Positions 5,637-51,436 of a DNA stretch of 64,000 nucleotides are shown here, one piece after another. The notes under the pieces were generated by a model. That model was given only the letters and a program-made list of their open reading frames with translations. It was not told where the DNA came from and did no database searches. Origin of the DNA: an uncultured bacterium (GTDB taxonomy: Bacteria; Bacillota_I; Bacilli_A; RF39; UBA660); assembly GCA_946560065.1 (NCBI GenBank), contig CAMNUE010000001.1:250805-314804 (forward strand), given 5' to 3'. Made by a program: the position numbers and the translations under genes. The first letter of the stretch is position 1. Each line of letters opens with the position of its first letter.

Positions 5637-5637
5637 T

Positions 5638-7200: not shown

Positions 7201-7215
7201 GAAAGGAATTTTTAG

Positions 7216-8111: not shown

Positions 8112-8147
8112 TAAATCATTACAATATTGAAATAGGGGGGTTCTTAT

Positions 8148-9104: not shown

Positions 9105-9136
9105 AATTATAACAATAAGGAAGAGGTATAAAACTA

Positions 9137-10033: not shown

Positions 10034-10038
10034 TATTA

Positions 10039-10065
10039 AATTCTCTCTAAAAGAGAATTTTTTTT
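10039..10065 (+). terminator. Intrinsic terminator
   Basis: AATTCTCT (10039-10046) pairs with AGAGAATT (10052-10059), followed by a T-run. Confidence 0.8.
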
Positions 10066-10086
10066 ATTCCAAAATAAATGTTTTTC

Positions 10087-10116
10087 TTGACAAGTGTACA
10101 TGAATACACATATAAT
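10087..10116 (+). promoter_or_regulatory. Consensus sigma-A promoter with an embedded dyad
   Basis: TTGACA (10087-10092), an 18-bp spacer and TATAAT (10111-10116). The spacer contains GTGTA (10094-10098) and its inverted partner TACAC (10105-10109), a possible repressor site. It drives the AAA-CYTH gene. Confidence 0.7.
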
Positions 10117-10162
10117 TAAAATGTAAGGGAAACAATAATTACCTTATAGGGGAGGAATATTT

Positions 10163-11272: not shown

Positions 11273-11286
11273 AAAGGAGAAAATAA

Positions 11287-11982: not shown

Positions 11983-11994
11983 CTCTAAAAGAAG

Positions 11995-12030
11995 AGTAGT
12001 GAAAGCATGTAGCTGAAAATCACTACTTTT
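11995..12030 (+). terminator. Intrinsic terminator
   Basis: AGTAGTGA (11995-12002) pairs with TCACTACT (12020-12027), followed by T residues. Confidence 0.75.
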
Positions 12031-12154
12031 TATTTACAATAAAATTCATGAACATAATATCTTTTTATTTTTACTCATGTTATAATGTTATTATGATAGG
12101 AGAAGAGTAGTAAGTAAATATATAAAAAGAAAGAATATAAAAGAAGGTGACTAA

Positions 12155-14779
12155 ATGAAAGATGATCGATTTTATACAATGAGTAATGATGAAATATTTA
12201 AAAGATTTCAAACTAATGAGAATGGGCTAAGTAGTAGAGAAGCTCAAAGAAGATTAGAAAAAAATGGTAAGAATGAATTACCAAGAAAAAAACCAGATAG
12301 TATATTAAAAATATTTATTACTGAATTATTAGATCCAATTGTTTTACTACTAATAGTCGCAATAATTGCTTCCCTTATAGTAGGTGAAGTAGTTGATGCA
12401 GTAGCTATTGCTTTTATCATCACTGTTGATTTAGTAATGGGAACATTCCAAGAAAAGAAAGCCTCAAATACTGCCGAAGCTTTATCTAATCTCGTAAGAG
12501 AAAAAGTTAAAGTAGCAAGAGACGGAAAAGAGGTACTAGTTGATTCGACTGAATTAACAATAGGAGATTATGTTTATTTAGAGTCCGGTGACAAAATAGC
12601 CGCAGACTTAAGAATAATCGAATCTCACAATTTTACAGTTGATGAATCAATATTAACTGGAGAAAGTTTAGCAGTAGAGAAAAACTCTAAGAAACTTCAA
12701 AATAAATCTCTTGCAATTACATCTCAGACAAACATGTTATTTGCTGGAACAAGTGTTGTAACAGGACGTGCTAGAGCCATCGTTGTAAAAGTAGCTCTAG
12801 CAACAGAAATAGGTAAAATAGCCAGTACAATTAATGAAACAAAAGAAGAGAAGTCTCCTCTAACAATCAGAGTAGAAAATTTTTCAAAACAAATTACTTT
12901 ATTAATTGCTATTATCTCAGTGATAATTGCCATTTTACTAGCAACAAAAAATGTTCCACTAGAAGAAATACTTCTATCTGTTGTAGCCTTAGGAGTATCT
13001 GCAATGCCAGAGGGCTTACCATTAGCCTTAACAATGGCCCTAACAATAGCCTCTAATAAAATGGCTAAACATAAAGTAGTAGCCAGAAAGCTTCATTCAG
13101 TTGAGTCACTTGGAAGCTGTACTGTAATCGCAAGTGATAAAACAGGAACTTTAACCGTTAATGAGCAAACTGCCAAGAAGATAGTATTACCAAATAATTT
13201 AGAATATATGGTGACAGGTTCCGGTTATTCTGTTAATGGAAGTGTTACAGGAGAAAGAATAGAATATGCTAAAGAAATGGCTCTACTAGGAATGATAAAT
13301 AATGAAGCTAAATTTAGCAAGGATGAACGTATTGGTGATTCAATAGACATAGCGTTCCTAGTTTTAGCAGAAAAATTAAAATTAAAAACAAATGATATCG
13401 AAATATTAGAAACAATTCCATATGAATCAGCTAATAAGTATTCAGCAGTATTCTATAAGAAAAATAATGAAACATATTGTACTATAAAAGGCTCTTTGGA
13501 AACTGTAACTTCTTTTTGTAAAAGTATTAATCTAAGAAAGGATTTCGATGTTAAAAAATTAGAAGAACAAAATGAAAATCTTGCTAAAGATGGTTACCGA
13601 GTAATAGCTATTGCTAATGGTAAAATAAAAGCAAAGGACAATTATACAGAAAAAGATATTCAAGATTTATGTTTTATGGGAATGGTTGGCTTCATCGATC
13701 CTATTCGTAAAGAAGCAGTACCAGCTATTAAAAAATGTACAACTGCTGGTATTAAGGTCTTAATGATTACAGGAGATCATCCACTAACAGCCTTTAAAAT
13801 AGCCAAAGATTTAAAATTAACTAAGGACTTTGATGATGTAACAACAGGAGATGAAGTAGAAAAATATTTGAAGGGACCAGAAGAAGAATTTGATGAATTC
13901 GTAAAAAGTAAAAAGATATTCACAAGAGTTACACCATTAGAAAAATTAAAGATAGTTGAATCTTTAAAAAGACAAGGTGAATTTGTTGCAGTAACAGGTG
14001 ATGGTGTTAACGATGCTCCAGCTTTACGTGCAGCTAACGTTGGTATCGCTATGGGAAGCGGTACTGATATAGCCCGTGAGACTGCCAAGATGATTGTAAT
14101 GGATGATAACTTTAAATCAATCGTTAATGGCGTATTAGAAGGAAGAGTTGCATATGCCAATATTCGAAAAATAATTTATTTCTTAATCTCTAATGGTTTA
14201 GCAGAAGTCTTATTTTTCACACTAGCAATTGTTTGTGATATGCCAATGCCATTAGTTGCAATTCAACTATTATGGTTAAATGTTGTAACTGACGGTATTC
14301 AAGACTTTGCCTTATCATTTGAAAAGGCTGAAAAAGATATTATGAAAGAAAAGCCACGTAGTCCAAAAGAGAACCTTTTTGATAAAACATTAATAGAAGA
14401 AATAGCTATATCAGGTATAACAATAGGTCTCCTTGTTTTCGCACTATGGTTCTATTTACTTAGAATAGTTCATGTTGAAGTAACAACAGCCAGAGCTTAT
14501 GTAATGGCTTTAATGATTATTATTCAAAATATTCATGCATTTAATTGCCGCAGTGAGAAAAGTAGTGTTTTCACAATTTCTCCAATAAGTAATCCTATCT
14601 TCATCATAGGCGTAATTGGTTCAATGATTTTAGGAATCGCTGTAATGGAAATTGATTTCCTATCAATCTTCTTAAAAACAACATCAATCCCAGCCACAAA
14701 CTTACTTGGATTATTTTGTTTAGGTTTATCAATATTAGTTATAATGGAATGCTATAAAAAAATTAAATATCATAAATAA
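12155..14779 (+). CDS. P-type cation-transporting ATPase (Ca2+-ATPase-like, P2 type)
   Basis: An 874-aa membrane pump, the usual length for P2 ATPases. In order: an N-terminal cation ATPase domain (SSREAQRRLEKNGKNELP), the actuator loop with TGES (168-171), M4 with PEGLP (285-289), the phosphorylation site SDKTGT with Asp328, the MITGDHP hinge, and TGDGVNDAPAL followed by MGSGTDIARETA. Six C-terminal membrane helices follow. The M4 motif agrees with Ca2+ (SERCA/PMCA-like) pumps, though Mn2+ or Na+ cannot be excluded. It exports the ion from the cytosol using ATP. The ribosome site is GAAGGTG. It stands alone between a terminator and tkt. Confidence 0.9.
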   Translation: MKDDRFYTMSNDEIFKRFQTNENGLSSREAQRRLEKNGKNELPRKKPDSILKIFITELLDPIVLLLIVAIIASLIVGEVVDAVAIAFIITVDLVMGTFQEKKASNTAEALSNLVREKVKVARDGKEVLVDSTELTIGDYVYLESGDKIAADLRIIESHNFTVDESILTGESLAVEKNSKKLQNKSLAITSQTNMLFAGTSVVTGRARAIVVKVALATEIGKIASTINETKEEKSPLTIRVENFSKQITLLIAIISVIIAILLATKNVPLEEILLSVVALGVSAMPEGLPLALTMALTIASNKMAKHKVVARKLHSVESLGSCTVIASDKTGTLTVNEQTAKKIVLPNNLEYMVTGSGYSVNGSVTGERIEYAKEMALLGMINNEAKFSKDERIGDSIDIAFLVLAEKLKLKTNDIEILETIPYESANKYSAVFYKKNNETYCTIKGSLETVTSFCKSINLRKDFDVKKLEEQNENLAKDGYRVIAIANGKIKAKDNYTEKDIQDLCFMGMVGFIDPIRKEAVPAIKKCTTAGIKVLMITGDHPLTAFKIAKDLKLTKDFDDVTTGDEVEKYLKGPEEEFDEFVKSKKIFTRVTPLEKLKIVESLKRQGEFVAVTGDGVNDAPALRAANVGIAMGSGTDIARETAKMIVMDDNFKSIVNGVLEGRVAYANIRKIIYFLISNGLAEVLFFTLAIVCDMPMPLVAIQLLWLNVVTDGIQDFALSFEKAEKDIMKEKPRSPKENLFDKTLIEEIAISGITIGLLVFALWFYLLRIVHVEVTTARAYVMALMIIIQNIHAFNCRSEKSSVFTISPISNPIFIIGVIGSMILGIAVMEIDFLSIFLKTTSIPATNLLGLFCLGLSILVIMECYKKIKYHK

Positions 14780-35827: not shown

Positions 35828-35904
35828 GTTCTCGTAGCTCAGTAGGATAGAGCAATCGCCTCCTAAGCGATAGGTCGGCAGTTCGACTCTGCCCGGGAAC
35901 ACCA
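35828..35904 (+). tRNA. tRNA-Arg (anticodon CCT)
   Basis: The cloverleaf is complete over 77 nt. Acceptor GTTCTCG pairs with CGGGAAC. The anticodon stem ATCGC/GCGAT encloses the loop CTCCTAA with anticodon CCT. The T-arm is GGCAG/CTGCC with loop TTCGACT. The discriminator is A and CCA is encoded. Confidence 0.95.
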
Positions 35905-37278: not shown

Positions 37279-38046
37279 ATGAAAATAAAAAATGATGACT
37301 TATATCCTGATATCTATGGATTATACTTATATTTTTTAGATAAAGGTCATACAAAAGGACTCACTTATTCTGATCTAAAAGCTTTAAAAAGACTAGAACA
37401 AGATATTAGCGACAGATTAATTATCAGTGATAATAAATGGTTTGATTTATATAACAAAATATCTAGTTTAAAACAGGAAATGTACCAAAGTGGGATTTTT
37501 CATAAATATCGTTATGAAGGAATAAATTATTTAAAAGAAAACACATATATACTGCCACTTGTACTTGCAAATGATGATTCAGATAAAATAAAAATGTACT
37601 CTGATGCTAGTTATTACTTTTCATGCCAATTTCACAATGAAAGAACGCCATCTATGGGGGTATCAGATGATAAAAACTTCTTTTATTGTTTTGGTTGTGG
37701 TCAATCAGGAGATGCTATCCGTTATCTTAAGTCATATGAAAATCTAAATTTCAAAGAAGCTATAGAATTACTCTCAACCATATATTTAATAGATCCAGAA
37801 ATGAAAAATAATAACTCCCAAGAACAGGCAAAAAAATACCAAGAAACAATTATAGGGCCTAGATATCAAGAACTTCTCGAGATAGGAAAAAAACGTCTAG
37901 AAAGACGTAATCAAAATGAAGTGGCCTATCAAAGTGTTGAAGACTTTTATCAAAAACGTTATTCTATGATTGAGAGAGTAAAAGCAAAAGAATATGATCA
38001 AAATTTTACAGTAAAAAAACTTACTAAGAGAATGTACTTAGATTAA
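37279..38046 (+). CDS. Standalone CHC2-type zinc-finger protein
   Basis: A 255-aa protein. Residues 113-165 match the DnaG-type zinc-binding domain: Cys116 and His119 (SCQFHNERTPSM), Cys137 and Cys140 (FYCFGCGQSGDAI), then a helix resembling primase (LNFKEAIELLS). No TOPRIM/RNA-polymerase domain follows; the remainder is helical and basic. It may bind single-stranded DNA or regulate a primase, or be a remnant of element replication genes. The ribosome site is AGGAGG. Confidence 0.75.
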   Translation: MKIKNDDLYPDIYGLYLYFLDKGHTKGLTYSDLKALKRLEQDISDRLIISDNKWFDLYNKISSLKQEMYQSGIFHKYRYEGINYLKENTYILPLVLANDDSDKIKMYSDASYYFSCQFHNERTPSMGVSDDKNFFYCFGCGQSGDAIRYLKSYENLNFKEAIELLSTIYLIDPEMKNNNSQEQAKKYQETIIGPRYQELLEIGKKRLERRNQNEVAYQSVEDFYQKRYSMIERVKAKEYDQNFTVKKLTKRMYLD

Positions 38047-38061
38047 AAGAAGATAATTACT

Positions 38062-38742
38062 GTGTATAATAACTTATTTTGGAAACATCTCTCAAAAGAT
38101 AAAAATAAATTAGAAATATTTAAAAAAGGTCTCAAAACAGGACAAATTCAACCGTTCGATATAAACGTACTATCCCGCCTAAGAAGGCTATATTATTCTT
38201 GTTATTCTGCACTTATTTATCTATATGGAGAAGAAACAAATTTTGAAACTATTGGTAATAAAATTGAACTGTTATCATTAGTCTTTGAAAAAGAAGATTA
38301 TACAATAGTTCATGCTGACACTGATTCTACTAGAGAAATTCCTTTTTACCTTTATAAACATAAACATCTAGATAATAATTCTTATATGGAAGTCAAAAGA
38401 GGAAATAAAACTTATGTTTATGACACATTTTCTATGTTACGATTCGCTAAAGAAATCTATGAACAATTAGAACATCCGAAAATTCTTAGAAAGGTTTCTA
38501 AGAAAAAAATTTTATCACGCCCTGCACGTCTTTGTGATAGAAAGTCATACGATTCTCCTCATGACGATTGGCTAGCAATTGGAATGATTCCGCACTTAGA
38601 AAAAAATCTAAAAAATAGTCCCTACAAAAATATTCTGAAAAAAGAACTGCTTAGATATAAAAAAGAACTAGATTATGAAAGCATACTGCAAAATTGGTGG
38701 AAAGAAGAATCAAAAATTTTTGGTAAAGCAAAAAGAAAGTAA
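38062..38742 (+). CDS. Hypothetical basic protein
   Basis: A 226-aa soluble, Lys- and Tyr-rich protein. GTG 38062 follows the CHC2 gene by 15 nt with a weak site, so it is probably coupled. The segment RPARLCDRKSYDSPHDDWLA is the most distinctive. No recognised domain. The stop lies in a bidirectional terminator. Confidence 0.6.
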   Translation: MYNNLFWKHLSKDKNKLEIFKKGLKTGQIQPFDINVLSRLRRLYYSCYSALIYLYGEETNFETIGNKIELLSLVFEKEDYTIVHADTDSTREIPFYLYKHKHLDNNSYMEVKRGNKTYVYDTFSMLRFAKEIYEQLEHPKILRKVSKKKILSRPARLCDRKSYDSPHDDWLAIGMIPHLEKNLKNSPYKNILKKELLRYKKELDYESILQNWWKEESKIFGKAKRK

Positions 38743-38760
38743 TAAAATACTTTCTTTATT
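38732..38760. terminator. Bidirectional terminator between convergent genes
   Basis: AAAGAAAGTA (38732-38741) pairs with TACTTTCTTT (38748-38757), with A/T runs on both sides. Confidence 0.8.
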
Positions 38761-41700
38761 TTTTTAATATTAAAATTTGATTATCAGAAGAATCACCTTC
38801 ATATCCACCGACTAATTTTCCGTCAATTTCATAACCATATGCTGAATAATTTATAGGAATACAAGGTGAGACTTCTTCATGATTTTCCTCAAGTAGATAG
38901 TCCTCAATAACATTCCTTTTTCTACCAATTGTTACATATGTAATTGGTTTATCTGGATAATTGTTATTATACTTTTCAATAAAAGCTTTTGTTCCTTCAA
39001 TAAATGTTTGATAAATCTTTTCAACTGGAATAATATTTCGAGCTAACATATTCATCTCCATAGTATTAAAAACAGCATACCCTGCTTCTTTATTAACAAA
39101 TAGAGTAGCCTTCGCAATTATTTTTCCAAATCCGTTTCTAATAACTAAGTTCTGACAGCAATCAAGAATCATACTAGCACGCATAATACCAGCTCCAGCA
39201 CCATTCAAATGAGCGCAACAATTACAATACTTTCCAAGAATCATGTTCTCAACTGATTGCTTAGGAAGCCATTCATAAGATAATTCTATATTGGCAGATC
39301 CTTTTAAATCATTATTAGAATCATTATCATAATATATATTTCCTTCTTCATCATGATATGTCTTTGTAAAAATATTTCTCGGAGCCTTCAATGATTCATG
39401 AAGAATCAATTTAGCCTTCTTTAATAAACTATTAGTTGGAGTGAAATACTTTCCTAAAAGTTCTACTAAATCTTTGTCATCATCATCGAAGTCCAAATCA
39501 TTAAGTTCCATTAAAAAATAATTTTTACACTTATCGATAGTAACGTTTAAATGCCTCTGTTCACCACTATCAGCCATCGAACACTCTGAAATATTTCTAA
39601 AGGAATTATAGACCCTTGAGATAAAACCAGAGGCTGCTTTCTCTATACTAATTAGTTCTTTATAATTTTCAATAAAAAACAAAATAAACTCTTCATCCAA
39701 TTCTTCTCTAGGATGCATATCACAGAAAACTCTATGTATGTCATCTCCAACAATTCTATTTTCATTGTTTGTTCTATCAGGCAATACTTCACAAAATAAC
39801 TTTTCAGTAAGGAAATTACACACTCTTTGACAAAGTCTATCATTATCAGAAAAAATACCTAATGCCAATGAAAGTTTAAATAAATCATTTAAATTATTTC
39901 CTTGATAATCACCAGTTTCATTGACTAGACTAGCTTTAATTAATCTCTTAATATTAGAATTATAACATTTTACAAGATATTCCTGATTTTCATAATTTGT
40001 GTCTAGAAAAAACTTTGCATTATATAGAAACCTATCATATCTTTGATATTGCTCTAATAAATTGCAGTATCTAACTAATTTAGGAATATTATTAAATAGT
40101 TTAGTAATTTCATTATCATCATACTCCTCATCTTCAGTGTTTTCTCTAACAGTAAAAGCTTTAGAAAATCTAAAAAATCTATCTAGAGAAGGAGACATAT
40201 TTTTAATTATCAACTCTAAATCATTCTTTTTAACATTTTGCATTAAAACGCCATTAAATAAAGTTTCATCTTTAACATCATTAGCATCTAACATCTCTCG
40301 AATTGCTCTATAGTGTTTTCCTTCTGCAATTTCTTGTACAAAATCAATATCTGTTATAAATCTTTCAAAAATCCCACTGAGTTTTTTATTAAACAAAATG
40401 CTTTGCATTAATGAACTACAATCAGCATTAATAGACAATAAGTTATATAAGTAATCTACAAATATATCAGGTTTATCTTCAAGTAAATGTGAAGTAGAAG
40501 ATACCTCTCTAATTTCATCTTTTGACACCTTTACTGCATCATAATCATCAATTGACACATAATATGTTCCATCCGCAAGTGAGAAAATTCTAATATTGTC
40601 TTTATCAAAATACCTTTTATAAAAATCCTCAGAAGTCTTAGTCTCCAACATATTAAATTTCCTTGCCTTCATTTTCATAGAATCAAAAAAATTAATAGTA
40701 GTCTCAGGATAAAAAGTATTGGGCATAATCATTCTTATATCTTCTGGAATCCTTAATTCCTTTAACTTTCTTGATTTTTTAAAAACATTACTACCAATAT
40801 GCTGTAATGAAGAGGGGAGACTAACTTCAATTGCATTCATAAAAATATCGCTCATATCATCTGTTAAAGTAGTAATTCCTTCATCAATTGTAATTTTATT
40901 AAAAGGAATATGGGCCTCCTCCAATATACTCTTATGTACATTAAACAATAATGTTTTACCATACGGAGTATGAAATATATTTGCCTCTTTTAATTTATTA
41001 CAATTAAGAAAAGTCTTTGGACCTATACTTTCTATTTCAGAAGGAATATAAATTCTTTTTAAATATTTAGCCCCCGCAAAAGAATAATTAGATAAATTAT
41101 AAACTAATGAATGATACATAGTTTCATCATCTATTATATTTAAATAATATCCGACAACAAATTCTTCGTTCTTTGAATTGATTGCATATTGTAATAAAAC
41201 TCCATCATTTTTATCAATTAAAGCAATGCCTTCATCACTCATATATTTAGGATTTCGAGAATCAACAGTAATCTCTTTTAAAGAAGTCATTAAACTAAAG
41301 GCAGCAGTTTCAATATTATCTAGTGACTTAGGTATAAAAAGTTTTTCTATTTTATTGCAACCACATAAAGCCATAACTCCAATACTTTTAACATTCTTTG
41401 GCAAAAGAAAATCTTTAAGTCGTCGACAATTATACAAAGCAAAATCATCAATATATTCAATTTTATCATGGATGTTAACTTGTTTTAAATTTCGACAGTA
41501 AGAAAACATTCCACGAGAAAGATAAGTAAGATATTCTGGAATTGTAATCCCTTCTAAAGAAGTACAATTAGCAAAAACATCACTACCAATAAGCTTTAAG
41601 TTTTTAGGCAAATTTACCTTTTTTAATTTAGAACAACCCATAAAAGCACTATCACCAATAAAGACTACTGAATCGGGAATAATTACTTCTTCGACATCTT

Positions 41701-41776
41701 TATAATTCATGAACTCGCCATTTTCTATCCTAGTAGTTCCCTCTGGAATGACAAGACATTTACAATTTTTATCCAT
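38756..41776 (-). CDS. Giant cytoplasmic LRR protein 1 with conserved C-terminal module
   Basis: A 1006-aa protein without a signal peptide or membrane helix. Residues 1-360 are BspA-type leucine-rich repeats of about 23 residues (VEEVIIPDSVVFIGDSAFMG, CSKLKKVNLPKNLKLIGSD). Residues 380-1006 match the C-terminal part of the neighbour at 41792-45610: FSLADGTYYV, NRIVGDDIHRVF, SGFISRVYNSFRNIS and RNIFTK. They share a Cys/Gly motif near residue 850 (LGKYCNCCAHLNGAGAGIMR), then CCQNLVIRNGFGKIIAKATL. The end looks like a GNAT-type strand order, a weak inference. It lies 15 nt downstream of LRR protein 2 in one operon, next to the MoxR/vWA operon. Confidence 0.85.
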   Translation of the reverse strand: MDKNCKCLVIPEGTTRIENGEFMNYKDVEEVIIPDSVVFIGDSAFMGCSKLKKVNLPKNLKLIGSDVFANCTSLEGITIPEYLTYLSRGMFSYCRNLKQVNIHDKIEYIDDFALYNCRRLKDFLLPKNVKSIGVMALCGCNKIEKLFIPKSLDNIETAAFSLMTSLKEITVDSRNPKYMSDEGIALIDKNDGVLLQYAINSKNEEFVVGYYLNIIDDETMYHSLVYNLSNYSFAGAKYLKRIYIPSEIESIGPKTFLNCNKLKEANIFHTPYGKTLLFNVHKSILEEAHIPFNKITIDEGITTLTDDMSDIFMNAIEVSLPSSLQHIGSNVFKKSRKLKELRIPEDIRMIMPNTFYPETTINFFDSMKMKARKFNMLETKTSEDFYKRYFDKDNIRIFSLADGTYYVSIDDYDAVKVSKDEIREVSSTSHLLEDKPDIFVDYLYNLLSINADCSSLMQSILFNKKLSGIFERFITDIDFVQEIAEGKHYRAIREMLDANDVKDETLFNGVLMQNVKKNDLELIIKNMSPSLDRFFRFSKAFTVRENTEDEEYDDNEITKLFNNIPKLVRYCNLLEQYQRYDRFLYNAKFFLDTNYENQEYLVKCYNSNIKRLIKASLVNETGDYQGNNLNDLFKLSLALGIFSDNDRLCQRVCNFLTEKLFCEVLPDRTNNENRIVGDDIHRVFCDMHPREELDEEFILFFIENYKELISIEKAASGFISRVYNSFRNISECSMADSGEQRHLNVTIDKCKNYFLMELNDLDFDDDDKDLVELLGKYFTPTNSLLKKAKLILHESLKAPRNIFTKTYHDEEGNIYYDNDSNNDLKGSANIELSYEWLPKQSVENMILGKYCNCCAHLNGAGAGIMRASMILDCCQNLVIRNGFGKIIAKATLFVNKEAGYAVFNTMEMNMLARNIIPVEKIYQTFIEGTKAFIEKYNNNYPDKPITYVTIGRKRNVIEDYLLEENHEEVSPCIPINYSAYGYEIDGKLVGGYEGDSSDNQILILKK

Positions 41777-41791
41777 AATGATTTTACCTTT

Positions 41792-44700
41792 CTATTTTCT
41801 TAGTACTAATCTTTGCGATTCATGACAATCTCCTTGATAATGACCACCACCTCTATCTTTAATCCAGTAATCACCATAAGAAATACAATTTCTAACTTCA
41901 TGCATTGGATGTTTTATATCATCAAAGTAATCGGAAATGACATTTCTCTTTGCTCCAATTAAAATCTCAGCAATTGGAATTTCATTATTCTTGTTGTATG
42001 CATTAAGAAATGCTTTTGCCCCGCGAATTACAGCCTCATAAATATTAGCACAGTCTTCGCTACTACGTTGTTTAAGAGTAACCTCAACGTTATTGAAAAT
42101 AGCATAACCCTCTTTTCTATTAACATATAAAGTTGCCTTCGCAATAATTTTGCCAAAAGAATTTCTAATAACTAAATTCTGACAACAATCAAGAATTATA
42201 CTAGCGCGCATAATTCCAGCACCAGCACCATTTAGATGCGCACAACAACTACAATATTTACCTAAAACAAAATTATCATATTCTTGCTTTGGCAACCATT
42301 CATAAGAAAAATCATGTCTAATTGGCTCTCTCAAATCATTTGCAGGACTGTAATCATAAATAGGGTTGCCGTCTTCATCATACTCAACTTTAGTAAAAAT
42401 ATTTCTAGGAGCCATTAATGCTTCTTTATAAATAGTTTTTGCAAGCTGCCAAACTTTATTGTCATCAAACCAGTTACCAATAACTTTAGCAAATTCATTT
42501 TCATCAGGTCCAACATTATCAAATTTAATTTCATTCAAATAGTTATAACATTTATCCATAGTAACTTTTAATTTTCTTTGATGACCTTTGTCAGAAGTAG
42601 AAGTATCTGATATTTGCCTAAAATTAGTATATACTCTCTGAATAAAACCAGATTTTCCTGTTTCTTCTTCTATCATTCTCTTATAATTGGCCATAAAGAA
42701 TTCTACAAATTCAGCATCAAATTCTTCCCTAACTTCAGGAAAATCAAAAATTCTATGAACATCATCTCCAACAATTCTATATGGATTATCATTACCATTA
42801 GGAAGTGATTTTAGAAATAACTTTTCCGTAATAAAAGTACTAGCTCTTTGTCTTATTACCGGATCATCTTCAAAGCATCCCATAATCTTTAATAGTTTTA
42901 ATAAATCTCCTAAGTTTTCTTTAGCAGTTGAATCATCATCTAATATTTTACTTTTCTTAACTAGTCTCTTCATATTAGCATCGTAATATTTAAAGAAAGA
43001 TTCAATAAGTGAATCAGCAGCACTTGCAATAAATGTCTTGTTAAACAAGAACCCATCATTTAAAGAATATTTATCCATATATTTAATAAATTCTTCTAAT
43101 ATATTATTCTCTAAAATATCTTCAACAGCTATCGGTTTCTTTTCAACAGATGCATCTTCTTTAATATCTAAAAATCCACCCTCAACAAGACTTCTTTTAA
43201 GTAATTCTTCATAATTAATAAGTAATTTTTCTAAGTTTTCAACATTATAAAATGCCATTAAAATTTTATTACAAAATAATGGATTCGTAATATTATATTT
43301 TCTAAGTAATTCTATATATTCAACACATTTTAGAAAATTATTCTTTTCAAGTAATTTCAAAGTAGTGTAATCTTTCTGCTCTAAAAGCCCAGATTTTTCA
43401 AGAATTTCTAACGCAAATTCATCTTCCTTTTTGATATGTTCAAAAAAGACTTTTCTATTTTCTAAACTCATATGAGCCATTAAAATCCCGTCTAAGAATT
43501 GTTTGATAACTAAATCATACTTAAATAAGTCATCCATAAAGTCAAGATAAAGAACTGGGTTTGTTTCAATTTCTTCTGAATGAGTGCAACTTCTTTTTAT
43601 ATCATTTTGTGTCAATTTAGTAACTTTATCTCCTTGTTCAAGATAATAAGTTCCATCACTAAGAGTATAAAGTCTACAATTTTCTACATACTCATTATTT
43701 GTTTCTAAACTTATAAAATTATCAAACATAAGACCATTGTCAAATTTAATCCTAGTTCCTTCAGGAATAGAATCCCTGTAAATAGTAGATATACTTCTAG
43801 GAACTTCTAGTTTCTCTATATTACAATTACTGAGTGCTCCAGTAGCAATAGAATATATTCCTTTTTTAGGAAATATAATTTTCTTCACTTTTTTAAAATA
43901 AGACAAAGCATCATTATTAAGATAAGCAGGTTCTTCTTCATTTTCTAAGAATTCTATTGTTTCAAAATCAAATGTCAGCTTGTCTTTGGTATTGCCTTCA
44001 GAATAATATCTCCCATGAGATCTAGCATTCAAATATATTGAAGTTCCAAAAGTAATAGGAGCAATGTTTAATTTTTTTAATCTTTCACACTCAGCAAAAG
44101 CATTAGACTCAATGTTATTAGTACAACCACAAATAGTAAGTTCTTCTAAATTTTTAGCTCCCGCAAAAGCGCCTCTTCCAATACCATCAATAGGTCTAAC
44201 AATACTTCTACCTAAAGCATCAATTTCTAAATTATAATCTTTTAAGGAATAACTCTTATCTTTTAAACCATTAGCATATAACATTAATTTTTGATAAATC
44301 GTATGAATTAATATTTTATTATCAGGAGTCATTAAATATTTATTACCATTTTCAACTTCAATTCTCTCTAAAGAATCCATAGAAGCAAAAGCAAAATCAC
44401 CAAAACTACCCAAACTAGCTGGAATCACTAATTTCTTAACATTATCACAGTATTTAAAAGCTTCTTTCGCAATGTACTCACAAGAACCAATAAAGTTCAA
44501 ATCTTCTAAAACTGTGCAGTCATAAAAAGCTCTAGATTCAACTCTTTTAATAGGACACTTATTTATTACTTTTCTAAGACTTTTACAATGACTAAAAGCT
44601 TCTGCTCCAATGGAACCATCTAAAAGCCTAGAAATAGTAAACTCTTCCAAACTCTTACAACCAGAAAAAGCAAATGCATTGATACTTTCAATTTTCTCTT

Positions 44701-45610
44701 GATTATTTATTGTTCTAAGATTAGAACAGCCTCTAAAGCAAGCCATAGGTATAACACTATCAGTAACTGTAATTGATTCTATACCAGTACAATTTTCAAA
44801 CATTCTTCTAGCATACTTTTTTACAAAGGAAGGAATTCTCTGAAGAGACTTACAATTTCTAAAGCATCTATCTCCACATTTAATTTCTCTACCAAATAAA
44901 GAAGAAATATCCTTAAGATTAATACAACCATCAAAAGCTCCAGTAGCTAAGCTAGCAATGTTATCATTTAATACTACTTTTTCTAAACTACGACAATTTC
45001 TAAAAGCATCAACACCTAATTCCACAATCTGAGTAGGGTATTTACTTAAACTATAGCAATTTTCAAAAACTTTATCTCCTAATTTATTAATCTTAGAATC
45101 AAGAACAATATCTAAATTGTGACAACCTTTAAATATTTCATCCGGTAAACTAGTCACACCATTAGGGAGAATAATTCTTTTTAACTTTTTACAATTCAAA
45201 AATAGTTGAGGACTAAGTTTCTTTAAAGAATTAGGAAGAACAACTTCTTCTAGATTTTCACATCCGGCAAAAGCTCCCCAATCGATTTTTTCACATCCCT
45301 CAGGTATAACTAAACGTTTTAATCTTTTACAATTCGCAAAAGCTCTATGACCAATAACCTTAAGTGTATCTGGTAATATTATTTCCTCAATGCTTTCACA
45401 TCCACTAAAAGCACCATTTTTTATAGTTATTAAATTTTCTGGTAAAATAACTTTTTTCAATTTCTTACATTTACCAAATGCTCTTTCTCCAATAATTTCA
45501 ACATTATCAGTAATCTTAATATTAATTAAATCTTCCTTCTCAAAATATTCGTAATCAAGAGCCGAACTGATGATAAAATCAGAAGGATCTATATTAGTAT
45601 TATTATTCAT
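41792..45610 (-). CDS. Giant cytoplasmic LRR protein 2 with conserved C-terminal module
   Basis: A 1272-aa protein without a signal peptide. Residues 30-640 hold many BspA-type LRR units (VILPENLITIKNGAFSGCES and similar, often with Cys at the same place). Residues 655-1272 are the module shared with LRR protein 1: YTLSDGTYYLEQG, YRIVGDDVHRIF, SGFIQRVYTNFRQIS, LGKYCSCCAHLNGAGAGIMR, then NLVIRNSFGKIIAKATLYVN, and a closing QGDCHESQRLVLRK. ATG at 45610 is set by GGGAGG (complement of 45618-45623). A good promoter lies on the minus strand. LRRs of this type are usually on the cell surface, so a cytoplasmic form suggests an internal sensor. Confidence 0.85.
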   Translation of the reverse strand: MNNNTNIDPSDFIISSALDYEYFEKEDLINIKITDNVEIIGERAFGKCKKLKKVILPENLITIKNGAFSGCESIEEIILPDTLKVIGHRAFANCKRLKRLVIPEGCEKIDWGAFAGCENLEEVVLPNSLKKLSPQLFLNCKKLKRIILPNGVTSLPDEIFKGCHNLDIVLDSKINKLGDKVFENCYSLSKYPTQIVELGVDAFRNCRSLEKVVLNDNIASLATGAFDGCINLKDISSLFGREIKCGDRCFRNCKSLQRIPSFVKKYARRMFENCTGIESITVTDSVIPMACFRGCSNLRTINNQEKIESINAFAFSGCKSLEEFTISRLLDGSIGAEAFSHCKSLRKVINKCPIKRVESRAFYDCTVLEDLNFIGSCEYIAKEAFKYCDNVKKLVIPASLGSFGDFAFASMDSLERIEVENGNKYLMTPDNKILIHTIYQKLMLYANGLKDKSYSLKDYNLEIDALGRSIVRPIDGIGRGAFAGAKNLEELTICGCTNNIESNAFAECERLKKLNIAPITFGTSIYLNARSHGRYYSEGNTKDKLTFDFETIEFLENEEEPAYLNNDALSYFKKVKKIIFPKKGIYSIATGALSNCNIEKLEVPRSISTIYRDSIPEGTRIKFDNGLMFDNFISLETNNEYVENCRLYTLSDGTYYLEQGDKVTKLTQNDIKRSCTHSEEIETNPVLYLDFMDDLFKYDLVIKQFLDGILMAHMSLENRKVFFEHIKKEDEFALEILEKSGLLEQKDYTTLKLLEKNNFLKCVEYIELLRKYNITNPLFCNKILMAFYNVENLEKLLINYEELLKRSLVEGGFLDIKEDASVEKKPIAVEDILENNILEEFIKYMDKYSLNDGFLFNKTFIASAADSLIESFFKYYDANMKRLVKKSKILDDDSTAKENLGDLLKLLKIMGCFEDDPVIRQRASTFITEKLFLKSLPNGNDNPYRIVGDDVHRIFDFPEVREEFDAEFVEFFMANYKRMIEEETGKSGFIQRVYTNFRQISDTSTSDKGHQRKLKVTMDKCYNYLNEIKFDNVGPDENEFAKVIGNWFDDNKVWQLAKTIYKEALMAPRNIFTKVEYDEDGNPIYDYSPANDLREPIRHDFSYEWLPKQEYDNFVLGKYCSCCAHLNGAGAGIMRASIILDCCQNLVIRNSFGKIIAKATLYVNRKEGYAIFNNVEVTLKQRSSEDCANIYEAVIRGAKAFLNAYNKNNEIPIAEILIGAKRNVISDYFDDIKHPMHEVRNCISYGDYWIKDRGGGHYQGDCHESQRLVLRK

Positions 45611-45638
45611 GAAATAGCCTCCCACTTAATAGTTTCAT

Positions 45639-45667
45639 ATTATAATCATTTACAAGTAATTATGCAA
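45639..45667 (-). promoter_or_regulatory. Promoter of the LRR operon
   Basis: On the minus strand: TTGCAT (complement of 45662-45667), a 17-bp spacer and TATAAT (complement of 45639-45644). Confidence 0.65.
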
Positions 45668-45687
45668 TAAAATAGTTTTCAAATTTA

Positions 45688-45716
45688 TTGCTAAAAAAAA
45701 TAAATAATGGTAGTAT
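45688..45716 (+). promoter_or_regulatory. Promoter of the vWA-MoxR operon
   Basis: TTGCTA (45688-45693), a 17-bp spacer and TAGTAT (45711-45716). It is divergent from the LRR promoter in the 129-bp region 45611-45739, so a shared regulator could act on both. Confidence 0.55.
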
Positions 45717-45739
45717 AGAGAATTACTGGAGGAGAGGTT

Positions 45740-46489
45740 ATGAAGATTAAACCAAAAATAGAAAATCCAATTACTTTGAAAATAAAAAAGAACAAATCTG
45801 TAGTCTTAGCAGATGGCACTTCACCTAAAGAGTATTCATTAATTCCAGGAGTGATGTTTAAAGAAGGGCATTATGGTATTGTTATGATAATTGATCATAA
45901 TAATAACCAAGAAGAATATGTTTATCCAACTCAATGCGATATCGAAATGCTTGGTATTGAAGGAAATAAATTAAAAATCTATGAAAAATATAAAAAAAAG
46001 CCTTGGATTTTTAATAAATCAACAGGTGTTCTAGAACATGATACCCAGGATGATTTTACTTTAGAAGGATTAGCTGAACTGGTCGAGACTAGTATTGAAG
46101 AAGATAATGAAACAGGGGAAGCAGTAATTAAAAATCCTGTGACAATAGAAATTTCTGAAAATAATCCTCAAGATTCTAGAATAATAGTTGACAATAATCA
46201 AGATAAAAAATATCCATTATATCCAGGTGTTATGCTAGGAAAAGGACGTTATGGTTTTGTAATGAGAGTAGCAACTGCAAAAGGTATAGAAGAAAGGACA
46301 TATGGGACAGAAGGTAGCATTGAAGCAGTCGGAAAAGACAAAGAGCAAGATCCAGCACTAAAAATTTTCGAAGCAGGTAAATATCATCCATGGCGCTTTG
46401 ATGATGAGGGGAATTTAGTAGATAAAGCATGCATTTATAAAAATCCTAGAAAGGACAAAACACTTGTTTTAGAAAAAAGGAATATTTAA
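45740..46489 (+). CDS. Two-repeat protein opening the vWA-MoxR operon
   Basis: A 249-aa soluble protein made of two copies of a domain of about 100 residues. Copy 1 (about 9-105) has NPITLKIKKN, EYSLIPGVMFKEGHYGIVM and PWIFNKSTGVLEHD. Copy 2 (about 130-240) has NPVTIEISEN, KYPLYPGVMLGKGRYGFVM and PWRFDDEGNLVDKA. It is beta-rich. An acidic linker joins the copies. No family is recognised. AGGAG precedes ATG 45740. The next gene begins 5 nt after its stop, so it is part of the operon and may bind the vWA or LRR partner. Confidence 0.75.
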   Translation: MKIKPKIENPITLKIKKNKSVVLADGTSPKEYSLIPGVMFKEGHYGIVMIIDHNNNQEEYVYPTQCDIEMLGIEGNKLKIYEKYKKKPWIFNKSTGVLEHDTQDDFTLEGLAELVETSIEEDNETGEAVIKNPVTIEISENNPQDSRIIVDNNQDKKYPLYPGVMLGKGRYGFVMRVATAKGIEERTYGTEGSIEAVGKDKEQDPALKIFEAGKYHPWRFDDEGNLVDKACIYKNPRKDKTLVLEKRNI

Positions 46490-46494
46490 TAAAA

Positions 46495-48846
46495 ATGTAT
46501 ATTTGGAGATATGAAAAAAATGCTTTTAAAAATAAAAGCCAACCTAATTCAAATACCACTGATCAAGACAAGCTAAAGCCAGAAAACCTAGAAAAACAAG
46601 AAGATCTTGAAATGCCACCAATTTCTGAACCAAGTGAAAATAAAAATATTGGAGAGCAAGCAGAACAATCTATGTCGTCAGAAGATGCTAACAAAACCGA
46701 TAGTAATGGTGAAGAGAATAATCGTGATAATAATGATTCAGCTTCTCAAAATGAAAATATAACCTCTCAAGGCGAATCTGATTCATCAAATGATAGCAAA
46801 GAAAATCAAGATAAATCAGAAAATTCCGACAACAAACAGAATTATGATTCTAAACCTGATTCAGAAGCTGAAAAAACTGAAGAGAAAAATTATAATAAAA
46901 GTTCAGCTGATTCAAGCACCCAAGAGGAAAGTAATTCTCAAGATAGAGAAGAAAATGAAACAGAAACTCAAAAATCAAAACAAAGTGATTCTCAGTCAGA
47001 ATCAGAGCAGTCTGATACACCATCAAATAAAAGCAATAACTCTCAAGAACAAACAGAATCACAAGAAAATAACTCAAGTGGAATTGAAGAGCCAGAAAAC
47101 GCCTCAAATGATGAAGATAAATCTCAGACCAATTCAGAATCATTCTCAACTGATAATCAAATGAATGAATCTGAAAATAGTAATAAGGAAAATGAAACAG
47201 AAACTCAAAAACCAAAACAAAGTGATTCTCAGTCAGAATCAGAGCAGTCTAATGCACCATCAAATAAAAGCAATAACTCTCAAGAACAAACAGAATCACA
47301 AGAAAATAATTCAAGTGAGTCAAAATATTTACCAAATAATAAAAATGTACAAACAAACCAAAATGAAGATATGAATTCTCAAAATACTGCAAAAGAAAAT
47401 CAAGAAAGTAATAAGAGAAACACTAAATCGCAAAGCAACGATTCTAATTTAGACAACACTTCAGAAACATCCAGTTCTAAAGACAAGAATTCTAATGTTG
47501 AAGAAAACACTTCTAATCAAAAAAAAGATTCATCTCAAGAAACAGAAAACTCAGAAACTCAACAAGAATCAAACCAAGAAAAAACAAGTTCAGAAGATAG
47601 TAATGATACTAAGGAAAACAATATAAAAGATAATCAAACAAATCAGTCTAACTCAGAAGAAACTCCTTCTCCATCGGAAGAAGCCAAAGAAACTAGAGAA
47701 AATCAAGAAAACAAAGACTTAGAAGATAATCAATCAGCAAAAGAAGCAAATGAATCTAAAGATGAAAATCAAGACAAGAAAAAAACAATAGAAGATATAC
47801 AAAAAACTAGCAATTCTTCAGAAAACTTAGAATCAAGAAAAGAGAGTTTAGAAAGATTAAAAGAAACAATCAAACATTATGCTCAAAAGAAGCAACAAAT
47901 GCTTAGACAAGATTTACCAGAAAGCCAAAGCAAAAAAAGAGAAGAAAAATCACAAAACGAGGAGATTGACTATCAAAATAAATTCCTTGAAGAACTAAAA
48001 AAGGACTTACCATCATTTAAAGAACGTAATAGAGGAGATGGTTACAGTATCGATACTAACGGTACAACAGAATTACCAAATAGTTTAGTTAGAACTTTAA
48101 TTACTAAATTTCTAAATCAACGTTTCTGTAAAAAGAATAGTGATTTAAATGTTCGCAGTAATTCTTTAGAAAAAACAGATGGTTTTTATAAATGGGATGT
48201 AAAAAATATAATAGTTCATCTAAAAACAAATCAATTAAATAAAGTATTAAATGATAAATATGGTTACGATTATGACTTTGGGAAGTCAGAATTTGTTCCT
48301 TTGTCATTCTATTTCGATATGTCCGGAAGTATGAGTAGATACACAAATATGTTAGCAGTACTTGCTATTGAATTACTAAAAAAAGATGTAAAAGTTTTGA
48401 TAGGGTTCAACGAAAAGATTAATGTTCAGATTGATAGAATAGCAAGCACAATGGATATTAAAGAATTAGCAAGTATTTTGAGTAAAGCTGGCTACTCATC
48501 ATATGGTCATCAAAAAAATGATATTCTTAAGGAATCTCGTATATCTTGTAAATTTATTGAAAGAAATATCGATAATTATTTAATTGAAAAACAAGCTGAA
48601 AAGTGTGTAGTCTTTGCTGATTGTGATCCAATAGATGAAGTTATAACACTTTCAAAGTATGCAGAGGTTTATTGGTTTTGTTTTGAAAACCAATTAGAAA
48701 ACGAAGATTTGACTGAATATAAAGGATTTTTATATCAAGTGGAAAATGCTCAAAATATTGCCGAAGGATTAGTTAAAGTTAGTGAAAAAAGATTTGAATC
48801 ACTTGTGTTTTTAGACAATCCCAAAATATTACAAAAGGAGGAATAA
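46495..48846 (+). CDS. vWA (MIDAS) protein with long Ser/Asn/Glu/Gln-rich linker
   Basis: A 783-aa protein. Residues 15-430 are low-complexity, acidic and Ser/Asn/Gln/Glu-rich, without hydrophobic segments or a signal peptide. Residues 440-590 are charged and helical, starting RKESLERLKETIKHYAQKKQ. Residues 600-783 are a von Willebrand A domain with MIDAS FDMSGSMS (Asp608, Ser610, Ser612) and a later VVFADCDP. The linker contains two nearly identical 130-bp copies, 79 codons apart. Like RavA-ViaA and midasin systems, the vWA should couple to the MoxR ATPase encoded 3 nt downstream. ATG 46495 lacks a close ribosome site, so coupling to the upstream gene is likely. Confidence 0.85.
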   Translation: MYIWRYEKNAFKNKSQPNSNTTDQDKLKPENLEKQEDLEMPPISEPSENKNIGEQAEQSMSSEDANKTDSNGEENNRDNNDSASQNENITSQGESDSSNDSKENQDKSENSDNKQNYDSKPDSEAEKTEEKNYNKSSADSSTQEESNSQDREENETETQKSKQSDSQSESEQSDTPSNKSNNSQEQTESQENNSSGIEEPENASNDEDKSQTNSESFSTDNQMNESENSNKENETETQKPKQSDSQSESEQSNAPSNKSNNSQEQTESQENNSSESKYLPNNKNVQTNQNEDMNSQNTAKENQESNKRNTKSQSNDSNLDNTSETSSSKDKNSNVEENTSNQKKDSSQETENSETQQESNQEKTSSEDSNDTKENNIKDNQTNQSNSEETPSPSEEAKETRENQENKDLEDNQSAKEANESKDENQDKKKTIEDIQKTSNSSENLESRKESLERLKETIKHYAQKKQQMLRQDLPESQSKKREEKSQNEEIDYQNKFLEELKKDLPSFKERNRGDGYSIDTNGTTELPNSLVRTLITKFLNQRFCKKNSDLNVRSNSLEKTDGFYKWDVKNIIVHLKTNQLNKVLNDKYGYDYDFGKSEFVPLSFYFDMSGSMSRYTNMLAVLAIELLKKDVKVLIGFNEKINVQIDRIASTMDIKELASILSKAGYSSYGHQKNDILKESRISCKFIERNIDNYLIEKQAEKCVVFADCDPIDEVITLSKYAEVYWFCFENQLENEDLTEYKGFLYQVENAQNIAEGLVKVSEKRFESLVFLDNPKILQKEE
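46951..47080 (+). repeat. Intragenic direct repeat, copy A
   Basis: 130 bp inside the vWA linker, repeated at 47188-47317 with only a few differences (offset 237 bp, a multiple of three). Slippage or recombination would change linker length in frame. Confidence 0.9.
47188..47317 (+). repeat. Intragenic direct repeat, copy B
   Basis: Partner of 46951-47080. The near identity despite a low-complexity context indicates recent duplication. Confidence 0.9.
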
Positions 48847-48849
48847 ACA

Positions 48850-50652
48850 ATGATTATAAATAAAAAAAGTATCAAACAATTATTTGAAGAAAATGGCTAC
48901 TATATATCAAATTATATTTTGGCAAAAGCCTACATTGCTTTAAAATATTTAGTAGAAGAAGAAACAGTTGGGCAAAAAGTTAACTCAACGTGTCTTGATG
49001 GTCCAAGTGGAGCAGGAAAAACACATTTTGTAGATGTCTATTGTAAGGTTGCTTCTAAATTATTAGGAAAGAGAGTTAAATTTATCAATTTCCAACTCGA
49101 TGCCGAAACAGGAAAAAGTGAATTATATGAAGATATTGATGTAGTTGCTACTTTTGAAAACGATCCAAGTAAAATCAGATTACCAGGGAAAATAGTTGAG
49201 GCAATTAAAGCAGTAAATAACGGAGAATATGTTATTTTAAAGATGGACGAGTATGACAAAGCAAGAGATGCTACAGATACATTCTTTAATAACTTTTTAC
49301 AAGAAGCACTAATAAATACTACTCAACATGGTGATGTTTTTGTTAATAAAAATAGTGGTGGCAAATTACAAGTCTTCCTTTGTAAAAATGATCAAAGAGC
49401 AGAATTATCAGAACCTATGATGCGTCGTAATAGAATGATAAGACTAGATTATATGACTCCAGAGCGTATGCATCAAATCCTATCAACCTTTGCTGAAAAA
49501 TATAATTGTCCATCGGAAATAGTAAATATGGTCACTTTGTTCTATGAAGAAATGTTTTTAAATAAAGAAAAGTATCGAAAATTACCATCTTGTTCTGAAT
49601 GTCAACAAGCCATTATTGATGCCAAACTATTATTACAAGATAGCGAATTTACTCAATCTGATATCTATGTAAACATTATTGAGAACATGTTAAAGATGGA
49701 AGACGATATTAAAACTTTTGAATCACTATTAGCAAGTGGTAGGAATCAAAAAACAGAACAACTAAATCAGCTAGTAACAAAAATGAAGAATTCCGAAACA
49801 GAAGAACAAAATTTTGATTTAAATGAAGTTATGCTCCAAACAGTATTTAAAAATGAAGGAGCCAAACTTACATCTAAAATAGCAGAAATTCAGGGTTTAA
49901 TCGAAGAATATCGACAGAAGTTCGCTGAAATGGAGGCAAAAAGACAAGCTTCAATTGATGAAGAAATAGCAAAAATTTCCCTTAATAATGGTACTTTGGT
50001 TTCTGCTAAAACTAATCCTAACGTGTCAACAAACTTTGAAGACGAATCATCTCGTATCAAAAGAGGACATAACATCTTTGAACTTTCAGATGACAATTGG
50101 ACAGATATTGCTACCCTTCACATAACAGAACTATCACATCACATCCTAATAGATAAAATGATAGAACACATCAATGAATTAGGAATTACTATTTACGAAA
50201 ATGGAACTCTTTTAAAAGAAGATGGCTCACTTAAATTAATAGTTGTTAAAGATATTGATGAAGATAATTTACCACGATATAGAATTATGGCTAGTCACCC
50301 AGTAATTCCTTCAACTTATCTAAACGATATTACTAATTTCTTCTCATTTGCGACTCAAGTATATGAAGAACAACCAAAAACAGCTGCTCAAATAACCAGT
50401 GCAGCCTCAAATACATCAATTCCAATTAATTATGATATAAATGCTCTTGTTTATAATGACGAAGACTCCTTTGCTTTAGATTATGAAAGTGTCGATGAAA
50501 ATATTTATTATATTGAAAAGAGTGGTATTTCAAGATTAGATACAGACTATTCTGACCTTACTTCTAAGGCTTCTTGTCAAAATCCTGAAAACGCAATTGC
50601 AGCTTCTAATAAGATAATGTCAGGTAATCAGAAGGTGCTTACAAATGAATAA
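48850..50652 (+). CDS. MoxR-like AAA+ ATPase
   Basis: A 600-aa protein. The AAA+ core occupies residues 40-270: Walker A GPSGAGKT (51-58), Walker B VILKMDE (Asp133/Glu134), the NNFLQEALI helix, and ELSEPMMRRNRMIRLDY as the sensor/arginine-finger region. A long helical coiled-coil segment (about 330-375, RQKFAEMEAKRQASIDEEIA) and a C-terminal alpha/beta part of about 200 residues follow; these are not typical of short MoxR proteins. It probably remodels a client with the vWA protein (gene 3 nt upstream). The stop overlaps the ankyrin gene by 8 nt. The ribosome site is AAGGAGG. Confidence 0.87.
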   Translation: MIINKKSIKQLFEENGYYISNYILAKAYIALKYLVEEETVGQKVNSTCLDGPSGAGKTHFVDVYCKVASKLLGKRVKFINFQLDAETGKSELYEDIDVVATFENDPSKIRLPGKIVEAIKAVNNGEYVILKMDEYDKARDATDTFFNNFLQEALINTTQHGDVFVNKNSGGKLQVFLCKNDQRAELSEPMMRRNRMIRLDYMTPERMHQILSTFAEKYNCPSEIVNMVTLFYEEMFLNKEKYRKLPSCSECQQAIIDAKLLLQDSEFTQSDIYVNIIENMLKMEDDIKTFESLLASGRNQKTEQLNQLVTKMKNSETEEQNFDLNEVMLQTVFKNEGAKLTSKIAEIQGLIEEYRQKFAEMEAKRQASIDEEIAKISLNNGTLVSAKTNPNVSTNFEDESSRIKRGHNIFELSDDNWTDIATLHITELSHHILIDKMIEHINELGITIYENGTLLKEDGSLKLIVVKDIDEDNLPRYRIMASHPVIPSTYLNDITNFFSFATQVYEEQPKTAAQITSAASNTSIPINYDINALVYNDEDSFALDYESVDENIYYIEKSGISRLDTDYSDLTSKASCQNPENAIAASNKIMSGNQKVLTNE

Positions 50653-51436
50653 GATTGTCGATTTAAAACTAGAAGAAAGAAAAAGACAAGTCCTTCTAGG
50701 AAGTTATGGATTAGATGAAGAGTCAATAATAAAAGAGCGTCAACAAATCAAAGAAGTTTCAAAAGAAGAAAGCGAAAGATTAGGAAAAGAACTTTATGAT
50801 ATAATTCGTAAAAAGAAATATGATGAGGCAACTCAATATTCCAGAGTAGAAGATTTAGTTCATTCTGGTGCTAATGTAAACTATAAAGATAAAAGTACTG
50901 ATTCAAATAGAGGAAATACACCATTATTATTTTGTAGTCGAAAAAATAAAATAAAAACATTTACACTTTTAGTAAGAGCTGGTGCTGATATCAATCAAAC
51001 AAATAACTATGGAACAACTTGCACAATGTCTAGTGCTAGACACAATAACCATGAAATACTTCAAATCCTAATCGCCCTAAAAGCAGATTTAAATGCTCGT
51101 TGCTATGATGGGGATAATGCCATTATGAGCGCCAAAAGAAATAATAGTGAAGAAAGTTTTAGATTACTTGAAGAGGCTCAAGTGTATCTAAATAACCATA
51201 ACGTAGTAGGAGAATCAATACTTAATATGAAACATAATACATCTCCAACAATTGATACAGCAGGATTACTTTTAAAAGATAGTTATCAAGAGGAACAAGT
51301 AGCACAAATAAATCAGCAAAAAGCAGAAGAACTGCTACTAGAAGCTCTTGAAAGATTAGATAATTTGTCTTCACTAACTCAAAAAGACATAGCCAAAAAT
51401 AGCGAAATAAGAGAAAAAATTCTTACAAAACATTAA
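50645..51436 (+). CDS. Ankyrin-repeat protein
   Basis: A 263-aa soluble protein. Residues 75-190 contain ankyrin repeats (GNTPLLFCSRKNKIKTFTLL, VRAGADINQTNNYGTT, LIALKADLNARCYDGDNAIM). Helical segments flank them. It overlaps the MoxR-like gene by 8 nt, so it is translated with it and is the last gene of the operon. It is likely a protein-binding adaptor for the ATPase complex. Confidence 0.82.
   Translation: MNKIVDLKLEERKRQVLLGSYGLDEESIIKERQQIKEVSKEESERLGKELYDIIRKKKYDEATQYSRVEDLVHSGANVNYKDKSTDSNRGNTPLLFCSRKNKIKTFTLLVRAGADINQTNNYGTTCTMSSARHNNHEILQILIALKADLNARCYDGDNAIMSAKRNNSEESFRLLEEAQVYLNNHNVVGESILNMKHNTSPTIDTAGLLLKDSYQEEQVAQINQQKAEELLLEALERLDNLSSLTQKDIAKNSEIREKILTKH

Follow-up and report, generated by a model that had tools for sequence, protein, structure and literature searches.

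vWA-AAA+ loci with divergent LRR-GNAT-fold genes in gut Bacilli: a candidate intracellular conflict system

Do two giant LRR genes and a divergent operon with vWA-like and AAA+ ATPase genes, found side by side in the 64,000-nucleotide stretch of bacterial DNA analysed here (the window), belong together, and what would their products do? The earlier note on this DNA had described a six-gene system, whose six open reading frames, divergent layout and spacing (5 and 3 nt apart, then an 8-nt overlap) all proved exact (Table 1). For LRR-A, an ATG at 45610 with GGGAGG in front of it appears to fit better as a start than the GTG at 45625, and with this start the divergent region measures 129 bp, as had been given. 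The recognisable promoters claimed for this region did not survive comparison with shuffled sequences, since 84 promoter-like sites were found where 94 were expected, which is no excess over chance. The six genes do stand as one conserved locus, but they are not a fixed set: the LRR pair and the two-repeat gene vary between loci, and a seventh gene had been missed.

Table 1. Features of the locus and its surroundings in the window.
Feature	Coordinates	Strand	Remarks
LRR-A	41792..45610	-	ATG start with GGGAGG; ORF from GTG starts at 45625; BspA-type LRRs ~aa 25-630, helical middle, C-terminal GNAT-fold domain
LRR-B	38756..41776	-	1006 aa; LRR-A paralogue, LRR + helical + GNAT-fold
GNAT-fold domain of LRR-A	41795..42322	-	model residues 470-645
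GNAT-fold domain of LRR-B	38759..39298	-	by alignment to LRR-A; start approximate
Two-repeat protein	45740..46489	+	all-beta, two ~95-aa copies
vWA-like protein	46495..48846	+	MIDAS motif and weak profile match
Low-complexity S/E/N/K/Q-rich region of vWA protein	46531..47904	+	
MIDAS motif DMSGSMS of vWA protein	48316..48336	+	residue 608
AAA+ ATPase	48850..50652	+	AAA_5-like, "MoxR-like"; AAA module ~aa 1-300 and variable C-terminal half
Walker A GPSGAGKT of ATPase	49000..49023	+	
Ankyrin-repeat protein	50645..51436	+	8-nt overlap with ATPase gene
Intergenic region separating the two divergent transcription units	45611..45739		129 bp
Seventh gene	38062..38742	+	convergent to LRR-B
tRNA-Arg(CCT)	35828..35904	+	

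Both LRR proteins contain LRR_5 repeats (Pfam E 4e-56 and 2e-95). The BspA-type label therefore holds for the repeats, but the C-terminal GNAT-fold domain had been overlooked, and the proteins are of an LRR + helical + GNAT-fold type, not plain BspA-like. Neither an N-terminal hydrophobic segment nor a TM-like stretch was found in LRR-A or LRR-B (max KD19 1.37), which by this simple measure agrees with the lack of signal peptides noted before, and the proteins look cytoplasmic. An AF2 model of the 645 C-terminal residues of LRR-A, built on an 18-sequence alignment, reached a mean pLDDT of 89 and a pTM of 0.82. Residues 470-645 of this model match GNATs in VIA (best Z 11.1, rmsd 3.3 Å over 141 residues), GNATs appear throughout the VIA matches listed, and the Foldseek matches listed are likewise GNATs (best E 0.017, so that the E-values themselves are weak). 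The fold predicted for the LRR C-terminus is that of a GNAT. Fold, strand order and a conserved Glu in beta-4 are shared with the GNAT superfamily, whereas the canonical CoA-binding motif A (R/QxxGxG/A) in the beta-4/alpha-3 loop is absent from all LRR-GNATs scanned; because of this absence, enzymatic activity is something that we infer for the domain. On the other hand, CxCC.H, N and E in beta-4 of the domain are invariant (C248/C250/C251/H253, N301 and E304 in alignment numbering) in 13/13 operon LRR-GNATs aligned.

Between one and three LRR genes occur per locus. In a quick tree made without bootstraps, the operon LRR-GNATs group together in one clade (SH-aLRT 99) to the exclusion of solo LRR-GNATs, and the LRR-B copies form a subclade within it (SH-aLRT 100), which indicates that the LRR-A/LRR-B duplication is probably old and preceded the split of the two ATPase clades. 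The solo LRR-GNATs (L013-L016, from the same bacterial family) have the domain plan, the CC(A) core and the N..E motif in common with the operon proteins, but they form a separate clade, and vWA/AAA+ neighbours are absent from the short flanks read. A short ORF adjoining the solo GNAT-fold relatives L015, L017 and L018 resembles, by eye, the start of a ProA-type aldehyde dehydrogenase. It was also found that the GNAT-fold half resembles, with weak scores, phage proteins in BFVD, some of them annotated as PcfJ-like; a relationship to PcfJ (PF14284), considered on this fold hint, received no support from hhalign against three PcfJ proteins. PADLOC 2.0 returned for the core proteins only ankyrin repeats and one weak PDC-M46A match, to LRR-A (2.9e-5), which 1 of 20 relatives keeps and which was set aside as chance.

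With regard to the divergent operon, the vWA protein has a conserved M.(I/F)W(R/K)(Y/F) motif at its N-terminus and a disordered S/E/N/Q-rich stretch of ~450 aa, followed by a C-terminal vWA-like domain. Pfam has no match for this protein, the two-repeat protein or the seventh-gene product. The putative vWA assignment rests on the MIDAS motif, a conserved FAD(F/C)DP strand and an hhalign match to true vWAs that is weak but in register; in the window and the aligned relatives, the protein ends ~175 residues past the MIDAS. The ATPase had been called MoxR, and this label, which should be read as "MoxR-like", draws on its probable place in the AAA_5 clade, its conserved Walker A and Walker B (MDEYDKA), its tandem arginines (R192 R193) and its pairing with a vWA gene, but the AAA_5 and AAA matches (E 0.0016 and 0.0069) lie below the curated Pfam cut-offs and AAA_3 gave no match. 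A PDB sequence search with the ATPase and vWA profiles returned nothing useful.

The ankyrin protein matches Pfam Ank_2 (E 5e-19), and ankyrin genes are duplicated or fused at some loci. Ankyrin proteins of L008 (3894-6986), L036 and L033 (8559-8849) have an extra domain with a YGEYPQ-type motif, fused or adjacent, and a tandem duplicate occurs in G025. The fold model of the two-repeat protein (pLDDT 73, pTM 0.46, best Z 4.6) is too poor for fold assignment, and a Tox-REase-9 match to one of its relatives (E 0.004, below cut-off) was not repeated and was dropped. The seventh gene is present at four loci, its homologues in L129, L130 and L025 occupying the same position with 42-47% identity; an H..W.EV..G...W.YD stretch in it recalls transglutaminase-like folds, as an impression only.

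How widely is this arrangement distributed? Searching 145 same-family genomes at the protein level turned up five further genomes with the ATPase; in 5/5 the vWA gene lies upstream and an ankyrin gene downstream, the latter present in G081 as LRR-ankyrin fusions. One of the five, G114, shows the divergent arrangement of the window with one LRR gene, flanked by trpS and other chromosomal genes. When genomes were scanned with the ATPase alignment, 38 related MAG loci emerged, mostly from gut/rumen MAGs labelled Bacilli, Bacillales, Erysipelotrichaceae or Tenericutes, together with a diverged Clostridia type. The vWA and ATPase genes adjoin in all loci compared. LRR genes divergent to the operon occur in the window and in L020, L022, L023, L025, L028, L030, L032, L034 and L035, with L020/L035 and L022/L032 being close pairs; the LRR gene is absent from at least four loci whose upstream sequence is long enough to show it (L033, L038, L040 and L045), and the two-repeat gene is missing from at least three further ones (L022, L023 and L032). 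The constant core is the vWA-AAA+ pair, usually with the ankyrin gene, while the LRR-GNAT and two-repeat genes are clade-specific (two clades).

The Clostridia-type loci (L046-L048, L050-L052, L055 and L057) comprise a vWA gene, usually an ORF of ~105 aa, and a larger ATPase, ~680-890 aa where complete, and no ankyrin or LRR gene was recognised there. An Erysipelotrichaceae-labelled variant (L053 5951-12139; L056 9085-12157) combines a vWA gene with a 720-aa ATPase, and L053 encodes just upstream a further AAA_5 protein, of 717 aa.

The association of the LRR genes with the operon was assessed by independent searches with the LRR C-terminus and the ATPase in the same 386 family genomes, an E below 1e-100 defining an operon-type LRR gene. 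Such a gene was found in 11 genomes and the ATPase in 20, with both in 9 where 0.57 was expected (p=2e-11). A two-repeat or vWA gene lies divergently beside LRR-A in 9/9 LRR genomes with readable upstream sequence, the contigs of the remaining 2/11 (G631 and G528) stopping within the LRR gene or at its edge. Contig breaks are frequent in MAGs at or in the low-complexity region of the vWA gene, and such breaks hide the LRR linkage from co-occurrence surveys. G543 and G527, which have the LRR gene and no ATPase match, carry the two-repeat gene and the vWA N-terminus at the contig end, and the LRR and two-repeat proteins of G543 are identical to those of L030, where the full operon is present. 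The co-occurrence that the earlier note proposed to test holds for the operon-type subfamily, as does the adjacency of LRR homologues to the MoxR/vWA operon at every informative locus, but distant LRR relatives live elsewhere. Weak LRR-GNAT relatives and the ATPase share 3 genomes vs 0.9 expected (p 0.05), at most a marginal association. We are confident that the genes form one working unit.

Pairwise Ka/Ks was below 1 in every part compared, and the genes are on this measure under purifying selection. Across pairs, values were 0.02-0.08 for AAA, 0.05-0.20 for vWA, 0.07-0.14 for GNAT and 0.06 for two-repeat parts, as against 0.20-0.26 for LRR and 0.13-0.22 for ankyrin parts. In the best pair (L030 vs G631), AAA (0.045), vWA (0.052), two-repeat (0.056) and GNAT (0.066) parts were the slowest, the GNAT-fold domain being about as constrained as the ATPase, and ankyrin (0.20), LRR (0.26), the ATPase C-terminus (0.27) and the disordered region (0.71) followed. 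Rates of change in the LRR and ankyrin parts and in the ATPase C-terminus are several times those of the GNAT-fold domain and the AAA module; other pairs show the same trend, but Ks varies between segments of one pair, and recombination could account for part of the difference among the domains of a pair. The L022/L032 pair has few ATPase changes (Ka/Ks 0.64 on a Ks of 0.04). An LRR Ka/Ks of 0.2-0.26 is best read as relaxed constraint, not positive selection, and the overall pattern would fit a conserved machine with faster-evolving binding surfaces. In addition, the ATPase and the LRR/two-repeat parts of the window disagree in how similar they are to L025 and L030, which suggests an exchange of parts between loci.

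The genomic context points in more than one direction. Similarity to the same-genus genome G013 spans an rnjA-like gene and the tRNA-Arg and ends at ~35916, and the ATPase is absent from three congeners (G013, G511 and G672). A FolD search in a congener found nothing, which left the insertion placed on its left side only, with no right-hand border found. An ORF at 37279-38046, just after the tRNA-Arg and ORF 35994, is CHC2 zinc-finger primase-like, with no recognised TOPRIM part; neither it nor ORF 35994 has a homologue beside other loci, and both were rejected as members of the system. The match of the CHC2 ORF to reverse-transcriptase defence models reflects a shared zinc finger, no RT being present. 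Elsewhere, the loci adjoin trpS, rbfA or the mraY/ftsW region, and in the clade of L038, L040, L045 and G408 the genes keep to a single chromosomal site, which follows mraY and an ftsW-like gene. The LRR-less operons L084, L040 and L045 lie downstream of these two genes, and genes that look ORF6N-like by their sequence start come in between. An HTH_36 protein is encoded beside the G543 copy. The G527 copy (L134) sits in a dense defence island (4251-12874) with Fic, a YobI/Tmn-like NTPase, GmrSD and an N6-methylase. Apart from that island, 70 neighbours compared with PADLOC gave scattered matches and were mostly housekeeping genes, so that the defence-island neighbourhoods suggested earlier amount to one locus of about a dozen.

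Taken together, there is about an even chance that the unit is a conflict (defence) system, as had been raised with a "perhaps". Patchiness, variable neighbours, turnover of the repeat surfaces and the one defence island favour this role, and the island-like position in the window is also in keeping with it, but these are circumstantial points, and the other loci, near trpS, rbfA or mraY/ftsW, speak against it, as do the loci without LRR genes and the sub-threshold MoxR and vWA assignments. In molecular terms, the products may be a cytoplasmic sensing-and-remodelling machine whose overall role is that of an NTP-dependent intracellular conflict system, a description to which we give equal weight for and against. 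Briefly, the LRR parts would recognise an internal ligand, most likely a phage or mobile-element component, and the ankyrin protein would provide a second variable binding surface. The vWA protein, via its MIDAS site, could link the ATPase ring to the LRR-GNAT proteins, which ATP hydrolysis would remodel or release. The GNAT-fold domain might then modify or bind a target in the cell or the invader; as the usual CoA loop is missing, its donor may not be acetyl-CoA. That L033, L038, L040 and L045 lack LRR genes indicates that the core can apparently work without them. A bolder version, which we regard as rather doubtful, is a further class of AAA+/vWA immune-like machines whose sensor-effector would be a cytoplasmic LRR receptor joined to a GNAT-fold transferase with a non-standard donor; if true, it would be a bacterial parallel to plant and animal LRR immune receptors in which another protein supplies the AAA+ motor.

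The main rival, somewhat unlikely in our judgement, is a housekeeping activase, in which a vWA-AAA+ chaperone matures or reactivates the LRR-GNAT enzymes, like CbbQ-CbbO or RavA-ViaA, and has no conflict role. Strong purifying selection on the AAA, vWA, GNAT and two-repeat parts would suit such a function, as would the loci beside trpS or rbfA and the single position downstream of mraY; however, only ~5% of the family genomes (20/386) have the genes, the partners vary, and the clade with that single position is without LRR-GNAT, so the loci that look most vertically inherited lack the supposed client. It is quite improbable that the genes are cargo or a maintenance module serving a carrier element, not the host, through establishment, anti-restriction or exclusion of rivals. 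The place after the tRNA-Arg, the CHC2 ORF, the HTH_36 neighbour of G543 and the BFVD resemblance could be taken that way, but the PcfJ profile comparison lent no help, no integrase, relaxase or phage structural gene was among the flanking ORFs examined, neither the ATPase nor the LRR C-terminus had a homologue in IMG/VR scans or among INPHARED phages, and PLSDB gave for the ATPase only one AAA match, at 25% identity. That two unrelated operons lie side by side by chance is strongly disfavoured by the co-occurrence, the invariant divergent adjacency in unrelated neighbourhoods and the G081 fusions directly downstream of the ATPase, even though distant LRR-GNAT relatives stand alone (L013-L016) and some vWA-AAA+-Ank operons have no LRR genes.

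In the open-access literature searched, no description of a system combining LRR, GNAT, MoxR and vWA was found, in line with the earlier statement that no MoxR-vWA system with BspA-type LRR proteins lacking signal peptides was known, and the locus is the first link there of an AAA+/vWA pair to giant intracellular LRR proteins with a GNAT-fold domain. If the role is defence, bacterial immunity would gain an LRR-receptor architecture, and this in gut bacteria whose defence systems have received little study; if not, the locus would represent a new AAA+/vWA client family and a family of GNAT-fold proteins lacking the usual CoA loop.

Compared with BspA-type surface LRR proteins, the LRR_5 repeats are common to both, but a signal or anchor sequence is absent here, the C-terminus is helical and GNAT-fold, and the genes are tied to an AAA+ operon. 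RavA-ViaA, CbbQ-CbbO and NorQ-NorD are AAA+/vWA two-protein remodelling machines, of which CbbQ-CbbO acts on Rubisco and RavA-ViaA on its clients. Unlike these, the present proteins have no AAA_3 or VWA_CoxE Pfam match at E 1, and they feature a long disordered region in the vWA protein and dedicated LRR-GNAT and ankyrin partners.

The MoxR-vWA ternary conflict systems have been described in four classes, VMAP, iSTAND, FtsH and beta-propeller (Kaur et al. 2020, PMC7159879), to which iSTAND2 and TERNS3 were added (PMC8195603), and their vWA proteins carry C-terminal effectors (PMC7159879, PMC8195603). A single LRR mention was found in PMC7159879, and "ankyrin" is absent from it, which suggests that it holds no LRR/ankyrin MoxR-vWA class. 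Searches of the six proteins for VMAP, iSTAND, FtsH-type, beta-propeller and TERNS3 domains gave no Pfam/NCBIfam match, in libraries that may not model all of them. The present locus resembles these systems in adjacent genes for a putative MoxR-type AAA+ ATPase and a putative vWA protein, an extra variable large protein, repeat superstructures and a patchy distribution. It differs in its third component, an LRR-GNAT pair with ankyrin and two-repeat proteins, in a vWA protein without an effector domain C-terminal to the vWA, and in its hosts, small-genome gut Bacilli instead of multicellular bacteria. As LRR-GNAT/ankyrin partners are unreported in those papers and C-terminal effectors absent here, the locus is not filed as a member of the MoxR-vWA conflict systems and is best described as resembling them in its working.
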